Below are positions 11,495 to 22,570 of a stretch of DNA of 23,921 bases, piece after piece. The stretch covers positions 1 to 23,921 of the forward strand of contig CALSCQ010000731.1 in NCBI GenBank assembly GCA_943704525.1. Reading direction: 5' to 3'. The stretch's first letter is position 1, and the number at the start of each line of letters is the position of its first letter. Source of the DNA: Pigoraptor vietnamica. Taxonomy: Eukaryota; Opisthokonta; Filasterea. Below the pieces are notes generated by a model, which did not search any database, had not been told where the DNA came from, and saw only the letters and a program-made list of their open reading frames with translations. Made by a program: the position numbers and the translations under genes.

Positions 11495-14073
11495 ATGTCG
11501 AATATGGCCGCTTGTGAAATCCGCCCCACGCTGGACGAGGTGCGCGCCCTCTCCGCGCAGGGCAACGTCATCCCCGTCTTCTGCGAGGAGTTTGACGACC
11601 TTGTGACGCCCGTGTCGGCGTATCTCAAAATCGCCGATGGCTCGTCTTACTCGTTCCTCCTGGAGTCCGTGACTCAGGGGGAGCGACTTGGCCGGTACTC
11701 CTTTATCGGCGTGAACCCCTACGAAATCGTCAAGTGAGTATGCGCCACTCTGCATTTGTGCACAGAAAATTGGCACGTGTCACGCATGCGTCGATGAATT
11801 TCGCTTGCGCGCCTTCCCCGTCTTACCGCTGTTTCTAAACGCGGCTGTGTCTGGACAGGACGGGCGAGGGCCACTCCGTCACCGGCGATCCCCTCAAGCC
11901 CATTGAGGAGCGACTCAAGTCGGTCAAGTACGTTCCTGTCGCAGGGCTGCCCCCGTTCACCGGCGGCGCGATCGGTGGGTGACTGCGCGAACTTGAAAAT
12001 GTTGTTGGAGATGATTCCGGGCGCATGCGTATTGTGCGAATTTGCTCCTCAGGCATGCCCAGATGTACGTCGTCTCTACGCTCGGCACTCATATCATATC
12101 CAAAATTGACCCCTCTCTCTTTCCTTTGGCAATTCGCAGGCTTCGTCACCTACGACTGCGTCCGCTACTTTGAGCCGCGCACGAACCGCCCGCTGAAGGA
12201 CGGCCTCCCCTTTCTCCCCGAGGCCCTCTTCATGTTCTGCAACTCGCTCATCATCTTTGACCACATCCGGCACGCCGTCCGCATCGTCTCGCACGTGCGC
12301 CTCGATGGCCCCGTCGACGCCACGACGTCCGACCCTGTTGCGGCCGCGTACGAGCGCGCGTGCGTGGACGTGCGTGCGCTTCTTGCCCGCCTCCAGCGTC
12401 CGGACACGCCGATGCCCAAACAGGGACCCGTGAACCCGTCGACAGAGGGCGTCGATCCCAACCACAAGCGCACCGAGTACGAGGGGATGGTGCACTCGCT
12501 GAAGAAGCACATCAACTGCGGCGACATTATCCAGGCCGTGCCATCGCGTCGCCTCGTGCGCGACACGGACGTCCACCCGTTCAACATGTACAGGCACCTT
12601 CGCTCCCTCAATCCGTCGCCGTACATGTTCTTTGTCGACTGCGAGGACTTTCAGGTCGGTCCCTCGTGCGCTCTGTTTTGGTCTTTGGTTCTCATTCGTT
12701 TTAATGCCTTGTCAATGGTAGTGCGCTTGTTTACAATTTCTCATTGTTACACATGCCTACTCACGTGTACTCGCCTGCGGTGCACGTGAAACAGATCGTG
12801 GGCGCATCGCCAGAGACACTTGTCAAAGTGACTGCGGACGGCACTGTCATCAACCACCCCATTGCGGGCACGCGCAAGCGCGGTGCGACACCGGAAGAGG
12901 ACGAGGCACTCGCGCGCGAACTTCTCGCGGACGAAAAGGAGCGCGCAGAGCACATCATGCTCGTCGATCTCGGACGGAACGATGTGTGAGTGTCTTTTCC
13001 CTCTTTCATAAGTGGGGTCGATGGGTCTATGATTTTAGCTGATCGGACATCACTTCCCATTGTTGCGATGGTGCTTCGTGTGGTAATGTGAGAATGCATT
13101 CTGCTTCGCGTAACGTTTGTCCACGCGTCCTCGCAACAGCAACCGGGTTTGCGATCCGCGCACCGTCAAGGTCGACTCGCTCATGCATATCGAGCGCTAC
13201 AGCCACGTGATGCACATTGTCAGCCAGGTAAGCAGTGGGCGCGCGTCGTGTGTGTGTGTGTATGTGTGTGTGTATGTGTGTGTGTTTGGGGGGGGCTTGT
13301 GCGTGGCGGGTCGTTGGTCCGTTGCGGATGTTGTGGACTTGCGTTTTCTTCTTATTCGAACTAGTCGATCGGGGTTCATCCTCTATAACTGCCTTGAAAT
13401 GGTCTAATTCTAACTTATTCGCTCCTCGCCCCTTAGGTTTCGGGCAAGCTGCGGTCCAACCTGACGCCCTTTGACGCATTCCGTTCGATTTTTCCCGCGG
13501 GAACCGTTTCGGGTGCTCCGAAGATCCGCGCGATTGAGCTCGTGTACGACCTCGAGCAGGAGCGGCGCGGAATCTACGCCGGCGGAGTGGGCTACTTCAG
13601 CTTTGGCGGCGAGATTGACACGTGCATCGCCATTCGGTGCGTGTGTGTGCATTCCCTGCGGAGTGTGTGTTTGTGGAGGTGCCCTTGTCTGGACTCGCAT
13701 GCCCTCGCCTCGAGCGTAATACCGGTCTGACGCGTGTTGTTAATCGTGCAGCACTATGGTCATGCACGCGGGCAAGGCGTACCTCCAGTCGGGCGGTGGC
13801 ATTGTGTTTGACTCGAACGCCAAGGACGAGTACGAAGAGACGGTGCGTCTCGGGTGTCTATTCGACGCGGCGGCAGCAAATGCCCGCGTCTTTCTGTTTG
13901 CTGGATGCAAGTGCGGTTGTGTTCGTGTCCACGCGTGCGGCTGTAACGTGGGTAACGTGGCTCATCATCCCTGTCGAACGCAGGTGAACAAGCTCGGCGG
14001 CAACGTCGCCGCAATTCGCAAGGCGGAACAGTACTACGCCCGCCAGCAGCGCCTCGACGCCGATCGCCAGTGA
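11495..14073 (+). CDS. trpE: Anthranilate synthase component I (TrpE), 8 exons
   Basis: This is the chorismate-binding subunit that, with TrpG-supplied ammonia, converts chorismate to anthranilate, the first committed step to tryptophan. Exons: 11495-11733, 11859-11974, 12140-12654, 12795-12985, 13140-13227, 13437-13636, 13752-13842, 13984-14073. The total is 1530 nt (509 aa), close to the usual 500-520 aa, and all phases close. Motifs: LLES (55-58), the N-terminal tryptophan feedback site of the family; [24 protein letters not shown] (312-320); [11 protein letters not shown] (343-353); [24 protein letters not shown] (405-417). The LLES motif suggests feedback control by tryptophan. No transit peptide is obvious, so it is probably cytosolic. 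The first ATG of the frame is used; a second lies nine bases on. A CAG acceptor-like site ends 3 nt before the ATG. Intron 5 is GT-rich. Confidence 0.97.
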
Positions 14074-14149
14074 CCGAACACGGACGTCATTTCCCCTGTG
14101 AGCACACTCCAACACAATCGTCGACAAAGCGAGCGAAAGAGTGCCAAAA

Positions 14150-15301
14150 ATGACTGACAAGGGCGGCGAATTGATCAAGGAGCGCCCTCTGCCTGACGTC
14201 ATCGACTGGGGCGGCAACACGCCCCGCTGCGTCATGGTCGACAACTACGACAGCTTCACGTGGAACATCTACCAGTACCTCTGCCAGCTCGGCGCGGACG
14301 TCACCGTCGTGCGTAATGACGCCGTCACCGTGGAGGACATTGCGCGGATGAACCCGACGCACGTCGTCATCTCTCCGGGTCCAGGTGCGGTCTTGCGCAG
14401 TGTCCTTTTCGTCGTTGCATGTGTTCAGGCTCATCTGGCGTTTGTGTGCCCCTTTCGTGTGCGTCTATCGCCATGCGATGTGTCTTGCTGTTCTCTGATA
14501 GCGCCACTCACGCACTCGCACACAAATGCTCCTGCAGGCCATCCATCGACGGATTCGGGCATTTCGCCTGACGTTATTCGCCGCTTTGCGGGCGTCATTC
14601 CCGTCCTCGGCGTTTGCCTCGGCGAGCAGGCCATGTACGAGGTGTATGGCGGGAAGGTACGTGCCGAGCGGGTTTGCATCTCGTTGTTCGTTTACATGCG
14701 CGTCTGTTTGTGCGTGTGTGGTGTGCCTGTGTGGCGTGCGTGCATAATCGTGTGCTGATACTTCTCTATCGTCGGTTCTCGCAATCGTCGTCGGCAGGTC
14801 ATCCACGCCGGCGAAATCATGCACGGCAAGACGTCGCTAGTGCGCAACGACGGCAAGGGGCTTTACAAGGGACTGCCCTCCGAGTTTGAGGTCATTCGGT
14901 ACCACTCGCTCGCTGGGGACAAGTCGTATGTCCCCCCGGACCTGGAGGTGCGCCATGCGAATAGTCATCAACTCGCGTAGTCTGTTTATCAACTCGCGTC
15001 ATTTGTGGAGTGTTCGCGGCGGTATAATTGCTGCCAGTCTGGGACGTGCTACCAGTTACTCCCAGACCCACGTGACCTATTTTGTGTCTCGCCGAGTTTC
15101 CGCGAGTCCTCATCTTTTCCACCCTCTTTGCCTCAGGTGACGTCGACGACGGCAAGTGGCGTCATCATGGGCGTTCGCCACCGCACCCTCTGCGTGGAGG
15201 GCGTCCAGTACCATCCCGAGTCGATCAAGAGCGACTATGGCAAGTCAATGTTCCTCAACTTCCTCCGCTGGCGTTCGGGCACGTGGGGCGACAACCTCTG
15301 A
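14150..15301 (+). CDS. trpG: Anthranilate synthase component II (TrpG, glutamine amidotransferase), 4 exons
   Basis: This class I glutamine amidotransferase supplies ammonia to TrpE. Exons: 14150-14384, 14538-14656, 14798-14947, 15137-15301; 669 nt (222 aa), which is single-domain length. Motifs: [16 protein letters not shown] (29-44), [15 protein letters not shown], nucleophile Cys105 in [17 protein letters not shown], and His194/Glu196 in QYHPES, so the catalytic triad is complete. The nucleophile loop reads GEQ where GHQ or GQQ is commoner. The sequence looks most like the G domain of fungal TRP3/trpC proteins, but it ends right after the domain instead of continuing into indole-glycerol-phosphate synthase. 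It starts 76 bp after trpE and stops 66 bp before trpD. Confidence 0.97.
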
Positions 15302-15367
15302 GCGCGTGAAAGAGAACAGGCGTCTGCGTCGGGCTTCTTTTAGTACTCGTTGTGCTGCATTGAGACA

Positions 15368-17070
15368 ATGGCGAACATCAAGACTTGCCTGAAGCACCTC
15401 ACGTCCGTGCCGCGGACGGCGCCATCGCACGACGAGCTCAAGCGCGCGTTTGGCGAAATTTTGTCGGGCGAAGCGACCGACGCCCAAATTGGAGCATTCC
15501 TTGTCGCCCTCAAGGCAGCCGGTGCGTTGCGGTGTTGTTGTATGTTGTTTTGTGTGGGGGTTAGTGAGTCAAAGTAGGGCGCGTCCAGTTTTGCTTCCGC
15601 CTGCTTTGTGGCTCGGGTTTTTACAGAATTTCTTATTTTTGTTGCATTGTTCAGGTGAAACGGCCGAACACCTTGCCGCGTGCGCGGAGGCGATGAACGA
15701 AGTCGCTATCCAGTGCCCGCTGGGTGAGTATGGCGCCTGGCCGGTACCGTGCCGCGCGATACCCAATGTGTTGCTGACCTTCTGCGTATTGTGCCTTCCT
15801 GCAGAGTTTGACGTGTACGACATCGTCGGCACCGGCGGCGACGGCCACGGGACATTCAACGTGTCGACAGCCGCAGCGATTGTCGCGGGCGCCGCTGGCG
15901 TGCGCGTGGGAAAGCACGGCAACAGGTGCGCGCGTGCTCGTTATCCCTAGGTGTTTCATGATGTCGTGAATTTCAAACGATGCGCAAAGTCTGGAAGCCT
16001 CTTTTTTTGTGCACGCATATCTAGTGGCGGACGTGGCTCGTTAGTTATTCACACGCCTTGTGTCCGGACTTGCGCAGGTCGGCGTCGTCGCCCAGTGGCT
16101 CTGCGGACGTGCTTGAAGCACTCGGCGCGCGCATCGCCATTGGCCCCGAAGTCGTGCGCGAGTCGCTGTCCCGCGCGGGCTTTTGCTTTCTGTTTGCGCA
16201 GACATTTCACCCTCTGCTCAAGCGCGTGGGAGTCATACGGTGGGCGCAACTGCGTGTGCGCGTGCTCGGTTGAAAATGGCCTCTGCCGCACACTCCGCAT
16301 CATATTAAGTATCTAGTGTCTCTTGCGAACAGCCTTGGTGCTTGTTAACTATCGTCTCATAGTCCCCTTCCCTTTCACTCTCTGTTATTCCAGGCGAGAG
16401 CTGGGTGTCCGTACGATCTTCAACCTCATCGGGCCGCTCTGCAACCCCGCGCGTCCCCGCGGCACCGTCGTGGGCGTCGCCAGTCGCGACGTGGGCGCAA
16501 TGATGGCTCAAGCGCTCGTGCGAACGGGCGTCAAGAGGGGAATGGTCGTGTGCGGCAGCGAGGGTCTTGACGAGGTGCGCTCGAGTGGTTTGATTGCGTT
16601 GCCGTGTTATGGCCGCTTTTAACTGCGGCGTTGTCGCACACTGTTACTCCCCTTTTGTCGCACACTGTTACTCCCCTTGGACTCATTTTCTTGCCCTGAC
16701 TCTCCTTTCTTCATCGGCCACGCAGATTAGCCCGGCGGGCGTGACGCACGTGTGGCGCATCCACGACGACGGCTCCATTCGCGAGCTGTCGATCAGTCCC
16801 ACGGACTTTGGACTCCCTCTCTATCCCCTCGAGGCGATGGTTGGAGGCAGCCCCACCGACAACGCCGGCATCATGCGCGCCGTGTTCGCTGGCACGCGTT
16901 CGCCCATCGCGGACTTTGTCGTCATGAACGCAGCCGCGCTCATCCACGTGGCGGGCCTTGTGCCTGAGGGCGATTACAAAGCGGCCGCTGCGCTTGCACG
17001 TGCTGCCATTTCGGACGGACGCGCGTCCAAAGCACTCGAGGCGTACGTCGCGGCCTCCAACGGACTGTGA
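15368..17070 (+). CDS. trpD: Anthranilate phosphoribosyltransferase (TrpD), 6 exons
   Basis: The enzyme transfers phosphoribosyl from PRPP to anthranilate. Exons: 15368-15521, 15655-15723, 15805-15925, 16078-16239, 16394-16574, 16726-17070; 1032 nt (343 aa), the normal family length, with all phases closing. Motifs: [14 protein letters not shown] (83-96), the PRPP-binding loop; KHGNR (111-115); [44 protein letters not shown] near the C-terminus. The KHGNR and RRELG motifs are each split by an intron and are restored exactly by splicing. The ATG is preceded by a pyrimidine-rich acceptor-like site (AG at 15342-15343). Intron 5 contains a perfect 24-bp tandem duplication. Confidence 0.97.
16631..16678. 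repeat. Perfect 24-bp tandem duplication in trpD intron 5
   Basis: 16631-16654 and 16655-16678 are identical, beginning TTGTCGCACACTG. They lie inside intron 16575-16725, and the lack of divergence implies a recent event. Confidence 0.95.
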
Positions 17071-17331
17071 AACACCTGCACACCTCTCTCCTATTGCCCG
17101 TTTTCGTCGTTACCTTTGCAATTGCTTCTGTTTTGTTTTAGTGTCGTAATACCCCCTTCATACGCTTCGTTCACTAGTGTACGTTTCCACTTTCGTTCCT
17201 TTCGTGTCTTCGTCTATCGTTTCTGCGTCTGCTCTGTGCCTGCGTGCGTGCGCGTGCGTTCTACGTCCCATTCCGCCTTCTCTCCTCCGAGCCTCGCTGC
17301 CTGAGGCGCTCGCGAGTGGGAGACCGCGAGA
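17071..17331 (+). promoter_or_regulatory. Intergenic region trpD to trpC-trpF, pyrimidine-rich
   Basis: This 261-bp gap is the widest in the trp cluster. It is strongly T/C-rich on the coding strand from about 17085 to 17295 and contains a CACTAGTG palindrome near 17173. It may combine the trpD 3' end with a promoter for trpC-trpF. I see no TATA-like box or gene. Confidence 0.4.
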
Positions 17332-19896
17332 ATGTCGGACGGCAAGCAGCAGACAATCCTCGAGCGCATTGTCGCTCGTCGGCGCCAAGACGTGCTCGAC
17401 GCGAAGGCGTCCCTCTCTCTCGACGCCCTTCGCGACGCCGTGCTGTCCGGACGCTACGATGCGGAGTTTCCCATTCTGGACTTCCACGCGGCGCTGGCCA
17501 AGGGCGGTCCGATGGCGCTGCTCGGGGAGATCAAGCGCGCGTCGCCGAGCCTGGGTGACATCTGTCCGGACATCAACGCGCCCGCGAGGTGTGTCCTCGT
17601 GTGTTGCGTTCGAGATGGAGTGTGTGTGGTGGATGTGTACAAGATTCACTGTTGTTTTGCCTTTGTAACGTCCCGCGGTTTCACGCAGGGCGGTTGAATA
17701 CGCGTGCGGCGGTGCGTCCGCCATTTCTGTGCTCACAGAGCCGACATGGTTCAAGGGCACACTCGCCGACATGGCCGCAATCAGGCGCGCAGTGTCTGCC
17801 CTTGGCACGAGCAGGTGTGTGTTAGTGGGCGCCTCTGCTTTCCGCGTGTCTGCTGCATATGTGTTAGAGCGCGAGTCTGCTTGTCTAAATTATTGTACTG
17901 AATTTACGTTGTGGGGGCAGAGGAATTCGCCATGCGCACAAGTGCCCCCCGCTCATCATGTGCGCTGCGCAGGCCCGCCATTCTCCGCAAGGACTTTGTC
18001 GTCGATGAGTACCAGGTGTATGAGGCGCGCGCACACGGCGCCGACAGCCTCCTCCTCATCGTCAAGGTGGGAAAATTGTTGCTCCCTTCGTCTAGTGTTC
18101 TCGTTTTCTGTGCTTTTTTTAAGTGTTGAATCGCCGTACCGATCCCACTGTCACCAACCCGGGCGGTTGTGGCTCAACCGGTCACCTGCTTTCGTTTTCC
18201 TCATCTTAGTGTTGAGGGTAAAATTTCTCGTTTTCTCAGCGTTGCATTCGCTGTAAACCATTCATTGCCACCAACCCTTTCTCCTTCCTTCGTCACTTTA
18301 TACTCAGGTGTTGACCGACGCCGAGCTCTCTGCGCTGTTGGCGCTCTCGCGCTCGCTTCGCATGGAGCCGCTTGTCGAGATCACGGATGCGGAGGAGATG
18401 CGGCGCGCACTTGCGGCGGGGTCACGTGTCATCGGCGTCAACAACCGCAACCTCCACGACTTCAAGGCATGTCACGTGCCCGTTCACAGCACGCTAGCTC
18501 TTGGAACTGCTGTGTGTTGATGATGCTCGCGCGTGCGTGTGCGTGCGCTGGCTTGTCTTCGTGCGCTGGCTTGTCTTCGTGCGCTGGCTTGTCTTCGTGC
18601 AAGTGTCTTGTGCGTCATGTTCATGGAAGGAAGTGTCGTCTCGTTTTTTCACTCGCATTCGCTGACTTGTGACTGTCCGATGTGCGCAGGTGGACATGAC
18701 GCGCACGGAGGCGGTCGCAAGCCTGGCACCCGAGGGCGTCATTCTCGCGGCGCTCAGCGGAATCTCGACGCGTGCGGATGTCGTGAGGTATGCTAGTGCG
18801 CAGTTGCATTCTTCTATCGATCATCTGGCCCTCACACGCCTATTTCTACGCTCGTTATGAAGGTATGCGACAGTGGGCGCTTCCGCCATCCTCGTCGGAG
18901 AGGCCCTCATGAGGGCGCGTGACCCGGGCCGTTTCGCGCGGTACGTTCACCAGACTCTGTGTGTGTGCAAGTGGTGTGGGCGGCTGTGTGTGCAATTGTG
19001 TTTGTGTGCTTGTGTGAGTTTGTGGCCTACGCATGATCCACATTAGCTTTCGCATCAACGTAGCTGTGTTTGACATGTCACCCTCTTGGCATGTCCACAC
19101 CCTCAGCTATCTCCTCGGCACGAGTAAACCGTCCGATGCCATCGTCAAGGTGTGCGGCGTGCGCGACGTCCCCTCCGCCCTCGTCGCAGCGTCCGCAGGC
19201 GCCGACATGATCGGCCTCATCTTCGCCAATTCGAGGCGCAAAGTAGACAACGCAACCGCCAAAGACATCGTCGCAGCCGTCGCATCGACACGCAAGGCCA
19301 AAGTCGAGGCGTGGAAGGGCCCGGTCGTCGCCGCATGCGGCGCGGGAGGATGGCATGCGTCGTGCGCCGACCTGCTGCTACGCGCGATACACTACACGGG
19401 GCCGCTCGTCGTCGGCGTCTTCTCGGATCAGTCCGAAGAGGAGATACGGGCGGTCGTCGAGGCGACTGGCATCGATATTGTGCAACTCCACGGAAGCGCC
19501 GAGGCTGCGGATATCGCCAAGCGCATCTCGAGGCCGACCATTCGCGCGGTGCACGTGGGAGAGAAGGACACGGCGGACGACGTGCGCGCGCGCGTGGCAT
19601 CGACCGTGGGCCATGATATCGCCGTCTTGCTCGACACGAAAGTGGGGACGGGGATGCAGGGCGGCCACGGCGTGGCGTTTGATTGGGCGATCGCTAAGGA
19701 CGTCACTGCGCGCGGTGTGTCGGGTGGCCCATTTCCCGTCTTGCTCGCCGGCGGGCTCACGCCGGAGAACGTTTGCGGCGTGCTCTCCTCCGTTGCGGTC
19801 GCCGGAGTGGACGTCTCGAGCGGCGTTGAAACGGACGGCGTTAAGGATCCCGAGAAAATTCGCGCGTTCGTCGGAAGCGTGCGTGCGCACTGCTAG
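17332..19896 (+). CDS. trpCF: Bifunctional indole-3-glycerol-phosphate synthase / phosphoribosylanthranilate isomerase (TrpC-TrpF), 7 exons
   Basis: The fusion catalyses the isomerase (F) and ring-closing (C) steps that give indole-3-glycerol phosphate. Exons: 17332-17588, 17689-17814, 17973-18066, 18308-18466, 18690-18787, 18863-18940, 19107-19896; 1602 nt (533 aa). The TrpC domain (about 1-270) has [51 protein letters not shown] and [13 protein letters not shown] instead of the bacterial SESGI is the fungal form. The TrpF domain (about 272-533) has KVCGVRD (Cys287), [17 protein letters not shown] (Asp447) and [24 protein letters not shown], again fungal TRP1-like. The intron at the domain joint (18941-19106) is phase 2 and restores RFARYLLG. 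The TrpF half is one 790-bp exon. The donor at 18467 is GC (AAG|GCATGT); using GT ten bases on would add three residues. Confidence 0.95.
18467..18689 (+). other. GC-AG intron (trpC-trpF intron 4)
   Basis: The exon ends TTCAAG, the intron starts GCATGT and ends GTGCGCAG before GTGGACATG. The product [11 protein letters not shown] matches the family block without gaps. A GT at 18476 would add Ala-Cys-His in frame and is the alternative. Confidence 0.65.
18543..18596. repeat. Three perfect tandem copies of an 18-bp unit in trpC-trpF intron 4
   Basis: The unit GTGCGCTGGCTTGTCTTC is repeated three times without a mismatch, within the GC-AG intron. Confidence 0.95.
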
Positions 19897-20480: not shown

Positions 20481-22570
20481 ATGGACGCACGCGGCAAGGT
20501 GCTCCTGGGCACATGCGGGTGGACGGACGAATCGGTGAGCGATGGACCGTTGTTGTTGCGCTTTCGTCATGCAGCGCCGCCGTCGCCTCAGTGTCCTTTG
20601 TACCGTGGGCGCTCTGCGAGCTGTATTGGGCGCTCTGCAAGCTCACATTTCGCGAGTATTTGCAGCGATCTGCATGTGTCGTTGTTGTTTTTCTTTCGTC
20701 TCAGCAAATACGTTTTGTTTCAACGACGGTGCGATTAATCGTGTCTGTAGAACATTAAATCGTGCAATCGGCAGACGGCGTTTCCGCACATCTCACTGAC
20801 TTTTACTCCCGGCACAGCTCTTGCGCTGCGGTCGCTTCTACCCCGGTCACGTGCGCAACAACGAGGACCGCCTGCAGCACTACGCGACGTTCTTCCCCTG
20901 CGTCGAAGTGGACACTTCGCTATATGCGGTTGCATCGCCAAAGAACGTCGAAAAGTGGTGCGGCCTTGTTCCGAAGGACTTTGTCTTCCACTTCAAGGCG
21001 AGTTTGCGGCTGCGTCTGCCTTCGCCCTTTGCGCCCGTCGCTCTCCGTGTTCTGCGGCTGCGTCTGCCTTTGTACTTTGTACCCATCGCTCTCCGTGTTC
21101 GCTGTCGTCTCTGTCTATGGATTTCCTAATGACAGACGCACCGTTTGCCATCGGCTTCTCACGCGCGTGCACTCGCACGCATGTACGCAGGCGTACGGTC
21201 TTTTCGCCCTTCAGAGCATGTCCATTCCGTCTCTGCCCTATGTTGTCAAGCAAATCCTTCCGCCCGCACTCGCATCGCTGGGTAACGTTACGCTCACGGC
21301 ACTCCCCGACGACTGCAAGGCCGCGCTGTGGGCACACTACAACGCATCGCTGTTGCCGGCGTACACGGCGGGAAAGCTCGGTAAGCTGCGGTTTCGTGAG
21401 TGCGCCTGTGGTAGCGCCGCACTTCCAGCGTTGTTTGTGCACGAGTAGAGAGCATAGATCGGATTTATTGGCTGTGCAGCTCTTCGCCGAAGTGTAGACT
21501 GCCTTATCTGCGCTATCGGAACAAACTCACTCATCATCGCGTCGCCACCTCTCTTCTCGCTCTTCCCGTACGCACCACACACGCGCGTACGCACGCACGC
21601 GCACACACAAGGCGTCGTCGTGTTCCAGTTCCATGTCGGCTTCAAGCCCACCGAGGCCCACTTTGAACACATCCGGGAGTGTCGTCGGCGCCTCGACAGC
21701 CGATACAAAATGGCCGTCGAGTTCAGGGACCGCGCGTGGCTGCAGATGCCAGAGGGGAGTAACGTAACGGCCGGGGACGAGGACGGTCGCGGCAGCAAAG
21801 GGTCGCAGCTAACATCCACCCTCGACGACACACTCGCGTTCCTTCGCTCTCTCTCAATCATCTACATTGTCGCGGACGAACTCTACAGCGAGATGCCCAA
21901 CGCGGCCCAGAGCGGCACGTCACGTGACGGCGTCATCCCCGTGCGCGCGGGCGTCGCTTCCCCCGCGTGTGCGTACATTCGCCTCCACCGCCGACAGGGG
22001 TCGGACCGACTCCTCGGGGAGAGCGAAGTGCGCGACTGGGTTGCGCGCGTCGCCGAGCTCTCGCGAAACGTCGATGGCCCCGTGTATTTCCTGCTGAGCA
22101 CGGCACATGAGGACCAGGCCATAGTCAACGCCAAGCGACTCGTCGCGTCTCTCAAGGAGCTGGCGTTCGACTGGCCCGCGCACTACCGCGCGTGGCAGCA
22201 GAAGAGGGGCGGGCTGCTTGCCTTCGTGTCGTCGGCGCCAAAGAAGAAGGGCGGCAATGTGGAGGAGTCGTCTGGCAGTGGGCAACGGGAAGTGGGCGCC
22301 GCCGAGACCGCGCAGGATGCGGAGACCGCGGAAACTGTAGAGAGCGTCGTAACGAGCGGGAATGGCAGCGCACGCGAAGGCGAACCGAGTGGCGGGAAGC
22401 GCAAGATGGATGTCGGCGACGGCGAATCGAAGGATGGCGAGAGTCCTAAACGCGCGCGTGTGGGAGAGGGATCGCCTGCGTCGCGCGGCGCAAGCCCGAA
22501 AAAGGCGCTGGCGCAGCACGCCAAGGGGGTGCGTCCGATCACGTCGTTTTTTGGGAAGGGCAAGGAATGA
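20481..22570 (+). CDS. DUF72 (YecE-like) TIM-barrel protein with charged C-terminal tail and PIP-box-like end, 4 exons
   Basis: The DUF72/YecE family is a TIM-barrel fold of unknown reaction. Exons: 20481-20534, 20818-20997, 21191-21380, 21612-22570; 1383 nt (460 aa), all phases closing. Family blocks: LGTCGW (usual GTSGW), CGRFYPG, LQHYATFFPCVEVDTSLYA, VEKWCGLVPKDFVFHFKA, FQFHVGFKPTEAHF, MAVEFRDRAWL, YIRLHRR, VYFLLSTAHEDQAIVNA. The domain ends near residue 350. The tail is acidic, then basic, with KRK (404-406), PKRARV (420-425), PKK (437-439) and a C-terminal VRPITSFFGKGKE. VRPITSFF (448-455) resembles a PCNA-interacting PIP box lacking the first Gln. A nuclear, replication- or repair-linked role is inferred, not shown. 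The donor at 20998 is GC (AAG|GCGAGT). Introns 2 and 3 are 193 and 231 bp. Confidence 0.9.
20998..21190 (+). other. GC-AG intron (DUF72 gene intron 2)
   Basis: The exon ends CACTTCAAG and the intron starts GCGAGTTTG and ends ACGCAG before GCGTACGG. The product FHFKAYGLF restores the family block F-K-A. The nearest GT donor breaks the frame. Confidence 0.75.
21006..21101. repeat. 48-bp tandem duplication in the DUF72 gene intron 2
   Basis: Copies 21006-21053 and 21054-21101 both begin GCGGCTGCGTCTGCCTT and share CTCTCCGTGTTC; they differ at several bases. The duplication starts 8 bases inside the GC-AG intron. Confidence 0.85.

Follow-up and report, generated by a model that had tools for sequence, protein, structure and literature searches.

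An intron-rich tryptophan gene cluster in bacterial operon order in Pigoraptor vietnamica, probably a remnant of a transferred Chloroflexota operon

Gene content and organization of the cluster

Four consecutive genes of the tryptophan pathway, encoding TrpE, TrpG, TrpD, and a TrpC-TrpF fusion, occupy positions 11495 to 19896 on the forward strand of a contig of the filasterean Pigoraptor vietnamica. The window, meaning the whole stretch of DNA analyzed, is 23,921 nucleotides long and represents the entire contig CALSCQ010000731.1 (C287) of assembly GCA_943704525.1. The initial annotation had described four same-strand trp genes in the order E-G-D-CF, interrupted by 21 introns, and models spliced at the exon junctions confirm this description, yielding four proteins without interruption.

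On the basis of gene models, family assignments, and trees, the first gene encodes TrpE, anthranilate synthase component I (11495 to 14073; 509 aa, 8 exons and 7 introns), followed by TrpG, the anthranilate synthase glutamine amidotransferase (14150 to 15301; 222 aa, 4 exons and 3 introns), and TrpD, anthranilate phosphoribosyltransferase (15368 to 17070; 343 aa, 6 exons and 5 introns). The last gene, assigned by gene model, Pfam, and tree, encodes indoleglycerol-phosphate synthase and phosphoribosylanthranilate isomerase as a TrpC-TrpF fusion (17332 to 19896; 533 aa, 7 exons and 6 introns), whose final exon (19107 to 19896; 790 bp) contains the entire TrpF domain, free of introns, with an exon junction at the C-terminus of TrpC. 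From stop codon to the next ATG, the genes are separated by 76 bp (14074 to 14149), 66 bp (15302 to 15367), and 261 bp (17071 to 17331), and neither AATAAA nor ATTAAA occurs in any of these forward-strand gaps. TrpG is a separate gene that ends in its own stop codon and is set apart from the TrpC-TrpF gene by TrpD, so that the locus contains no G-C(-F) fusion of the fungal TRP3 type.

The 21 introns range from 75 to 241 bp; 20 are of the GT-AG type, and the only GC-AG intron is the fourth of the TrpC-TrpF gene. GTGCG is the most frequent donor (7 of 21), and visual inspection showed donors of this style in a further gene from the same genome.

Pfam matches cover both TrpE domains, both TrpD domains, and the GATase, IGPS, and PRAI domains, all with E values of at most 4.8e-17 and above the gathering scores. 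Among the NCBIfam models, TrpE passes the equivalog cut-off of TIGR00564 (558.4 versus 517.7 bits), TrpD the equivalog-domain cut-off of TIGR01245 (358.7 versus 199.05 bits), and TrpG the subfamily cut-off of TIGR00566 (211.9 versus 121.05 bits), a model that cannot tell TrpG from PabA, although the genome has a PabAB on another contig, C441. The IGPS (PF00218; 266.6 bits, gathering score 27) and PRAI (PF00697; 131.7 bits, gathering score 22.7) domains reside in one protein. The proposal that the locus covers every step from chorismate to indoleglycerol phosphate is borne out at the level of family membership. The proteins are predicted to form an ordinary pathway, in which TrpE and TrpG would produce anthranilate, TrpD would add phosphoribose, and TrpF followed by TrpC would generate indoleglycerol phosphate, with tryptophan itself presumably made by the separately encoded TrpAB.

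Copy number and genomic setting

Profile searches of the contigs of the 32.5 Mb genome (32,526,649 bases, 1,395 contigs) found no second TrpD, TrpC, or TrpF, and matches to PF00591 (4 exon matches), PF00218 (4), and PF00697 (1) were confined to the cluster locus. Five of the eight PF00425 matches fall at the cluster and three on contig C441, where GATase and chorismate-binding pieces occur together; this candidate for a second TrpE was rejected and identified as PabAB. The search for trpA and trpB suggested by the initial annotation located TrpA on contig C972, fused ahead of TrpB in A-B order. Since both are absent from the cluster, the operon is not preserved whole, and five of the seven genes are found in order. 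The combination of dispersed orthologues and a misassembled region, which the initial annotation had raised as a possible objection, was not found.

Although the genome is a draft in many contigs, the explanation of the cluster as an assembly chimera or bacterial contamination, for which no evidence was found, has next to no probability. The contig is a genuine nuclear one, as indicated by the 21 introns, with donors in a style found elsewhere in the genome, by a Rap-GAP exon and a DUF72 gene on the same contig, and by an even composition, the GC content per kb across the window being 0.54 to 0.66 with no step at the cluster. As further observations on this genome, T-box domains occur on six contigs, and its EF-1alpha is identical at 75 of 77 residues to presumably mammalian chains, both features indicating an opisthokont and probably a single-celled holozoan. 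An exact 18S pattern had no match in the assembly; a shorter pattern matched exactly once, on C1236, in a stretch without an Rfam hit that looks by inspection like a SET-domain gene.

Bacterial and fungal relatives

A TrpE search of genome contigs, from which 80 loci were kept, returned five Chloroflexota loci at the top with 57-61% identity (L018-L022), all others reaching 54% at most. Among the kept loci, either L018, L019, or L020 scored highest in bits for every one of the seven domains (E, G, D, C, F, A, and B). These relatives belong to a Tepidiformia-like clade of Chloroflexota with operons in the order E-G-D-C-F-B-A. Its core loci are L018 (JABTUD010000002.1), L019, L020, L159, and L160, of which L018-L020 come from metagenome-assembled genomes with conflicting labels (Thermoflexaceae, Dehalococcoidia, and Tepidiformaceae). 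The core operons share with the cluster not only the order E-G-D-C-F but also insertions in TrpC and TrpF, and they provide the highest identities found, including 77-81% for the first part of TrpB (L018-L020). Unlike the cluster, they have separate C and F genes, with B and A downstream, and approximately 1.5-2.3 kb occupied by other ORFs keeps E and G apart; each trp gene of L018 and L019 is an uninterrupted open frame. As for other sources, phage records gave zero matches, the three stretches of viral contigs that fitted a pattern included no relative, and plasmid records remained below the core loci among the matches listed for TrpE (39-43% identity; 20 of 633 records), TrpD (42-44%; 6 of 108), and TrpCF (32-38%; 6 of 1,837).

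Some other Chloroflexota (L155-L158) resemble the cluster in having a TrpCF fusion, encoded as a single open frame, and inheritance of the fusion from bacteria was considered because the fused proteins of genomes G319 and G291 ranked second and third in the TrpCF search (one phylum only). These ranks arise because both domains match. A bacterial origin of the fusion was rejected because the TrpC of the two proteins is more distant (46 and 47%; 43-47% identity to the window TrpC across L155-L158) and because the concatenated tree does not place L157 and L158 in the core clade. Judged from these sequence relationships, the fusion in L155-L158 looks independent of that in the cluster.

Each Trp domain was treed separately, with support expressed as bootstrap/SH-aLRT; the eukaryotic comparators were all fungal, P. 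vietnamica being the sole protist. Of the fungal comparators, yeast TRP4 is the one verified against a database entry, being identical to PDB 7dsj at 380 of 380 residues; the others are presumed to represent the true sequences. All seven domains group with the one Chloroflexota clade, although the support is moderate for TrpF and TrpG, and in most trees fungal TRP2, TRP3, TRP4, TRP1, and TRP5 (presumed sequences except TRP4) are the sisters of the window proteins. For TrpE, the window and yeast are united at 100/99 and joined by L018-L022 at 100/100, and this joint clade is nested within a wider Chloroflexota set by nodes of 97/81 and 100/96, although some intervening nodes are weaker (e.g., 81/40). 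The window TrpG groups with two fungal rows (100/97) before joining the core (94/78), and for TrpD the window, yeast TRP4 (a long branch), and L018-L020 form one set (98/97). The eukaryotes are united at 99/88 for TrpC and 91/86 for TrpF, and L018-L020 join them at 100/99 and 90/85, respectively. The five-row sets of TrpA (100/99) and TrpB (100/100) include the protein encoded on C972; the pairing with yeast is supported for TrpB (97/94), and no such pair is resolved within the TrpA set. Concatenation of E, G, D, C, and F (30 rows) unites the window with yeast, again a long branch, at 100/100, and both with the five core loci at 100/100.

In quick trees built for the five cluster domains without any eukaryotic comparators, the window joins only loci of the Tepidiformia-like clade in all five (SH-aLRT 95-100), and it is nested among core loci for TrpE (with L018 and L021; 95) and TrpG (with L018, L159, and L160; 85). 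When identity alone is compared, yeast lies no closer to the window than it does to L018 (TrpE 51.9 and 51.3%, TrpG 58.1 and 59.2%, TrpC 46.0 and 47.1%, TrpD 35.9 and 38.2%, respectively), and the window TrpE is 62.6% identical to that of L018.

Origin of the cluster and comparison with known systems

The cluster is probably what remains of a single bacterial trp operon that was acquired by a eukaryotic ancestor shared with fungi and gained its introns later. This supports one of the two readings in the initial annotation, that of an old transferred operon, since E, G, D, C, and F, and also A and B, share one Tepidiformia-like sister group. Because the fungal Trp proteins (presumed sequences except TRP4) occupy the same position in the trees, the transfer appears to be ancient and common to fungi and this lineage, rather than specific to the protist. 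Fungal affinity had been put forward as a mark of secondary clustering; it does not separate the two readings, as the fungi and the window sit at the same place beside the bacterial clade.

Separate or indirect transfers, in which this lineage obtained the operon later and independently of fungi, either from the same bacteria or from another eukaryote, are unlikely. The nesting of the window TrpE and TrpG among core loci in the trees without eukaryotic comparators would, taken alone, fit a later transfer, as would a TrpE closer to that of L018 than to the presumed yeast TRP2, which is about equidistant from both. Against this stand the full support for the window and yeast in the concatenated tree and an AU test in which the grouping of the window with the five core loci without yeast, named after the tree was seen, was rejected (p-AU 0.00012), a result in which four of the five yeast parts are presumed sequences and yeast is a long branch. 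The occurrence of tryptophan-pathway genes in fungi and choanoflagellates, as described in PMC4339202, also suits vertical inheritance. Transfer between eukaryotes keeps some probability.

Somewhat less probable still is secondary clustering, whereby genes of Chloroflexota origin dispersed early and were later regrouped here by selection for co-regulation or co-inheritance. Metabolic gene clusters do arise de novo in eukaryotes, yeast trp genes are dispersed, and TrpAB lies elsewhere in this genome. However, the layout reproduces the donor order in uniform orientation, which is one out of 192 possible layouts when four units are already adjacent (4! x 2^4 / 2), and that order is found in 36 of the 37 bacterial loci having all five genes, which were picked by TrpE similarity. 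The 76- and 66-bp gaps are also tight, judged on this locus alone. The reverse direction, with the Chloroflexota clade receiving the operon from a eukaryote, is very improbable. Because the concatenated tree makes the core clade the sister of the eukaryotes, this node alone does not fix the direction; the position of the joint TrpE clade inside the wider Chloroflexota, the single open frames of L018 and L019, and the continuation of the core operons into B and A nevertheless argue against it.

Under ancient operon transfer, the donor would be a Tepidiformia-like Chloroflexota lineage with an E-G-D-C-F-B-A operon, and the recipient a eukaryotic ancestor common to fungi and P. vietnamica, presumably in a single event. 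Spliceosomal introns would have been gained afterwards, C and F would have been joined into one protein by a junction that carries an intron where TrpC ends, and A and B would have left the cluster and fused as A-B, the order also of yeast TRP5. E, G, D, and CF would have kept their place and order in this lineage, where the enzymes are presumably active and may be expressed coordinately. In fungi the genes would later have become scattered and G would have been joined to C-F: in yeast G is fused with C, and in most fungi also with F, in contrast to the separate G and intervening D observed here. A broader version, for which the balance tips just slightly in favor, holds that a stem opisthokont took the whole tryptophan pathway, all seven domains, in one such transfer; the order of five would have been kept here since before the animal-fungal split, the fungal G-C-F fusion would be another trace of the operon, and animals would have lost tryptophan synthesis by losing this imported operon.

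One bacterial operon, whose order a living protist still displays, appears to be the source of a core pathway of amino-acid synthesis that this protist and fungi have in common. With a donor group named, the origin of fungal tryptophan synthesis becomes directly testable, with a bearing on why animals need dietary tryptophan, and the locus is a natural setting in which to ask whether the order of an operon can survive the gain of introns and what holds that order together. Among the papers listed by literature searches on trp origin or operon transfer, no prior report of this case was found.

Operon transfers to eukaryotes are known as recent, peripheral cases. Wickerhamiella/Starmerella yeasts reportedly acquired a bacterial siderophore operon, which resembles the cluster in the joint uptake of several neighboring bacterial genes by a eukaryote. 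The siderophore transfer is recent and limited to one yeast clade, whereas the trp cluster belongs to primary metabolism, is intron-rich, and is apparently shared with fungi. According to PMC3942023, trp genes are unlinked in most eukaryotes, and diatoms, dinotoms, and other stramenopiles possess an InGPS-PRAI (TrpC-TrpF) fusion like that of the cluster; the stramenopile cases described there are fusions, in contrast to the ordered cluster of P. vietnamica.

Gene models and copy number of the trp cluster

The draft genome of Pigoraptor vietnamica comprises 32,526,649 bases in 1,395 contigs, and the window is one complete contig, C287. Four genes are arranged head to tail on its forward strand: TrpE (11495-14073; 509 aa, 7 introns), TrpG (14150-15301; 222 aa, 3 introns), TrpD (15368-17070; 343 aa, 5 introns), and a TrpC-TrpF fusion (17332-19896; 533 aa, 6 introns), all predicted by splicing at consensus junctions picked by hand. 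The proteins of all four genes exceed the Pfam cut-offs, as do TrpE, TrpG, and TrpD, the three that were run, the NCBIfam cut-offs; the enzymes and their reaction order, assigned by family, would follow established biochemistry. The spliced models and family matches bear out the initial annotation of four consecutive same-strand genes in the order E-G-D-CF with 21 introns, and the gene order, gene models, and common bacterial affinity of the cluster are solid.

The introns (20 GT-AG and one GC-AG) measure 75-241 bp, with a density of 4.35 per kb of coding sequence. In-frame read-through meets a stop in 16 of the 21, and two of the remaining five cause a frame shift. TrpE intron 7, TrpG intron 1, and TrpD intron 2 are open if read through, so their status as introns is based on splice sites and homology. 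The intergenic gaps of 76, 66, and 261 bp, each devoid of AATAAA and ATTAAA, would leave little room for every gene to have its own terminator and promoter, so overlapping transcription or multi-gene transcripts are possible. Elsewhere on the contig, a Rap/ran-GAP domain exon (PF02145, E 1.5e-14), apparently part of a larger gene, lies on the opposite strand at 724-1176, and a forward-strand DUF72 gene (PF01904) of at least two exons occupies 20821-22570, 3' of TrpCF.

In profile searches of the genome, PF00591, PF00218, and PF00697 match at the trp cluster only, while PF00425 also matches contig C441. There, chorismate-binding pieces with 25-33% identity to TrpE occur together with GATase pieces, and the gene is assigned as aminodeoxychorismate synthase and not as a second TrpE. 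The single TrpA match lies on the reverse strand of contig C972 (L098, 4206-5699), where one long open frame continues into TrpB as an A-B fusion, both domains of which group with core Chloroflexota. The search for trpA/trpB and second copies proposed in the initial annotation thus located TrpAB on C972 and matched D, C, and F at the cluster alone, although the lack of further copies is not absolute, since the searches score the best candidates in a draft genome. A uroporphyrinogen-decarboxylase-like ORF, recognized by eye, adjoins TrpA-TrpB.

Several other genes of this genome were also observed. About seven T-box domains, some partial, would be many for a single-celled organism, and T-box factors are also present in some early fungi and nucleariids. 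The domain (PF00907) gave 11 matches, 10 of them above the cut-off, on six contigs (C844, C791, C1344, C123, C1365, and C854), two being adjacent on C1344, and none in 14 prokaryote controls. T-box factors are reported in unicellular holozoans (PMC7147346, PMC8061703). The EF-1alpha gene is split by contig ends (end of C137, start of C435, end of C310), with the C-terminus in two copies. Its first 77 residues show two differences from 4c0s and 5lzs, which we take to be mammalian chains, versus four from 1f60, presumably the yeast chain; the middle part, where the opisthokont insertion would fall, was not found in the draft genome. Taken together, the EF-1alpha and T-box matches point to an opisthokont, and most likely to a unicellular holozoan. 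On contig C1236 (L112), which gave no Rfam match, a SET-domain gene resembling SUV4-20 was recognized by eye; its introns are of the GTGCG type.

Bacterial relatives of the trp genes

Scanning genome_contigs with six TrpE peptides revealed relatives encoded in 586 of at least 589 stretches, of which the best 80 were kept. Among these best 80 of at least 586, the top five are Chloroflexota with 57-61% identity, and the others reach at most 54%. Within these loci, G, D, C, F, A, and B likewise each score highest in bits in L018 (JABTUD010000002.1), L019, or L020, a ranking that is not independent because the 80 loci were chosen by TrpE similarity. A separate TrpCF search of 400 genomes from this phylum gave matches in 347. 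Genomes G231, G151, and G001 (the carrier of L018) ranked first, fourth, and fifth by bits, with TrpC identities of 55-58%; ranks two and three went to G319 and G291, whose fused proteins are less similar (48 and 44% identity) and match across both domains. Complete E-G-D-C-F-B-A operons are present in G231 (L159) and G151 (L160), which together with L018-L020 represent a Tepidiformia-like core clade. All five of E, G, D, C, and F occur in 37 of the 80 loci, in this order in 36, and B-A follows in 21 of the ordered loci, in a count that allows intervening genes.

In quick trees of E, G, D, C, and F built without any eukaryotic comparator, the window groups with core-clade loci alone for every gene (SH-aLRT 100, 98, 99, 99, and 95, respectively), which makes its bacterial affinity independent of such comparators. 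TrpD falls beside the core clade, and the branching order for TrpC and TrpF is not fixed.

Relationship to fungal trp genes and competing explanations

The yeast TRP4 comparator is identical to PDB 7dsj across 380 residues; the other eukaryotic Trp comparators are provisional sequences, which we take to stand for the named proteins, and except for TrpD the sharing with fungi depends on them. In the TrpE tree (59 rows, 56 bacterial), yeast TRP2 is sister to the window (bootstrap/SH-aLRT 100/99), and the pair joins L018-L022 (100/100) within a broader Chloroflexota set; Arabidopsis ASA1 is placed with Planctomycetota. The window and two fungal TrpG sequences (64 rows) group at 100/97 and join four core loci at 94/78. 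TrpD (49 rows) unites the window, L018-L020, and TRP4, a very long branch, at 98/97. Eukaryotic TrpC sequences (47 rows) group at 99/88, and with L018-L020 at 100/99, the provisional plant IGPS being placed elsewhere; for TrpF (41 rows) the values are 91/86, and 90/85 with the core. The five-row set including window and yeast reaches 100/99 for TrpA (26 rows), without resolving the two inside it, and 100/100 for TrpB (31 rows, first ~210 residues), with window and yeast paired at 97/94.

Lengths between conserved motifs were also compared. The TrpC stretch from SVLT to RKDF spans 29 residues in the window and the five core loci; of 50 bacterial rows, six share this length (the core and one other), 21 have 23, and 10 have 24-28, with 13 unscored. 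In the provisional fungal proteins the stretch comes to 28 and 31. From KxCG to VGVF, TrpF of the window spans 84 residues, as do L018 and the provisional Aspergillus sequence; the length is 85 for L019, L020, L025, L159, and L160, and the pattern was inapplicable to 33 of 45 bacterial rows and to the provisional yeast TRP1.

One ancient acquisition of the trp genes, common to the window organism and fungi, is the best reading and a probable one. A separate or indirect transfer would accommodate the comparator-free trees, in which TrpE (with L018 and L021, 95) and TrpG (with L018, L159, and L160, 85) of the window are nested among the core-clade loci, a position that alone would fit a later event, and also the plain identities of TrpE, TrpG, TrpC, and TrpD, by which yeast is about equally distant from the window and L018. 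However, this nesting is reversed once yeast is added. In a concatenation of the five proteins (30 rows), window and yeast pair at 100/100 and join the five core loci, themselves grouped at 99/97, with support of 100/100. Constraining the window and core loci to exclude yeast is 40.7 log units worse (p-AU 0.00012, for a group named after tree inspection and with yeast as a long branch), and such a transfer appears unlikely. Re-clustering of dispersed trp genes is judged quite improbable. The initial annotation had taken one shared bacterial sister group as the mark of operon transfer, and separate phylogenies of E, G, D, C, and F, and likewise A and B, each place the window with a single Chloroflexota core clade.

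Among the titles and abstract openings listed for trp origin and eukaryotic operon acquisition, none describes trp genes clustered in order in the nucleus of a eukaryote, or fungal trp genes derived from Chloroflexota. Trp genes are described as unlinked in most eukaryotes, with fusions known (PMC3942023), and tryptophan biosynthesis as one of the functions lost in animals and kept in fungi and choanoflagellates (PMC4339202). Steps to tryptophan are among the families enriched in osmotrophic groups, including Fungi and Teretosporea (PMC13345962); the main text of that paper lacks the word Chloroflexi, and its trees could hold part of the present result.

Comparison with bacterial operons

The window differs from its closest bacterial counterparts in several respects. 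In the core loci, E and G are separated by approximately 1.5-2.3 kb of other ORFs, judged by eye to be nudix-like in L018 and L019, in contrast to 76 bp in the window; E adjoins G in non-core loci such as L023, L024, and L026. In the Tepidiformaceae chromosome (L022), trpC lies about 16 kb from trpE. Furthermore, the core loci read have separate C and F genes, overlapping by 4 bp in L019, whereas these are fused in the window. The last TrpCF intron is found where the TrpC domain ends, and a single intronless exon of 790 bp contains the entire TrpF domain. Such a structure would be expected had a downstream trpF, overlapping or adjacent, been joined to trpC through a new intron. Other Chloroflexota (L155-L158) also carry TrpCF fused in one frame, with TrpC identities of 43-47%, and neither of the two fused loci included in the concatenated tree groups with the core clade; their fusion is apparently independent, and that of the window therefore looks eukaryotic in origin.
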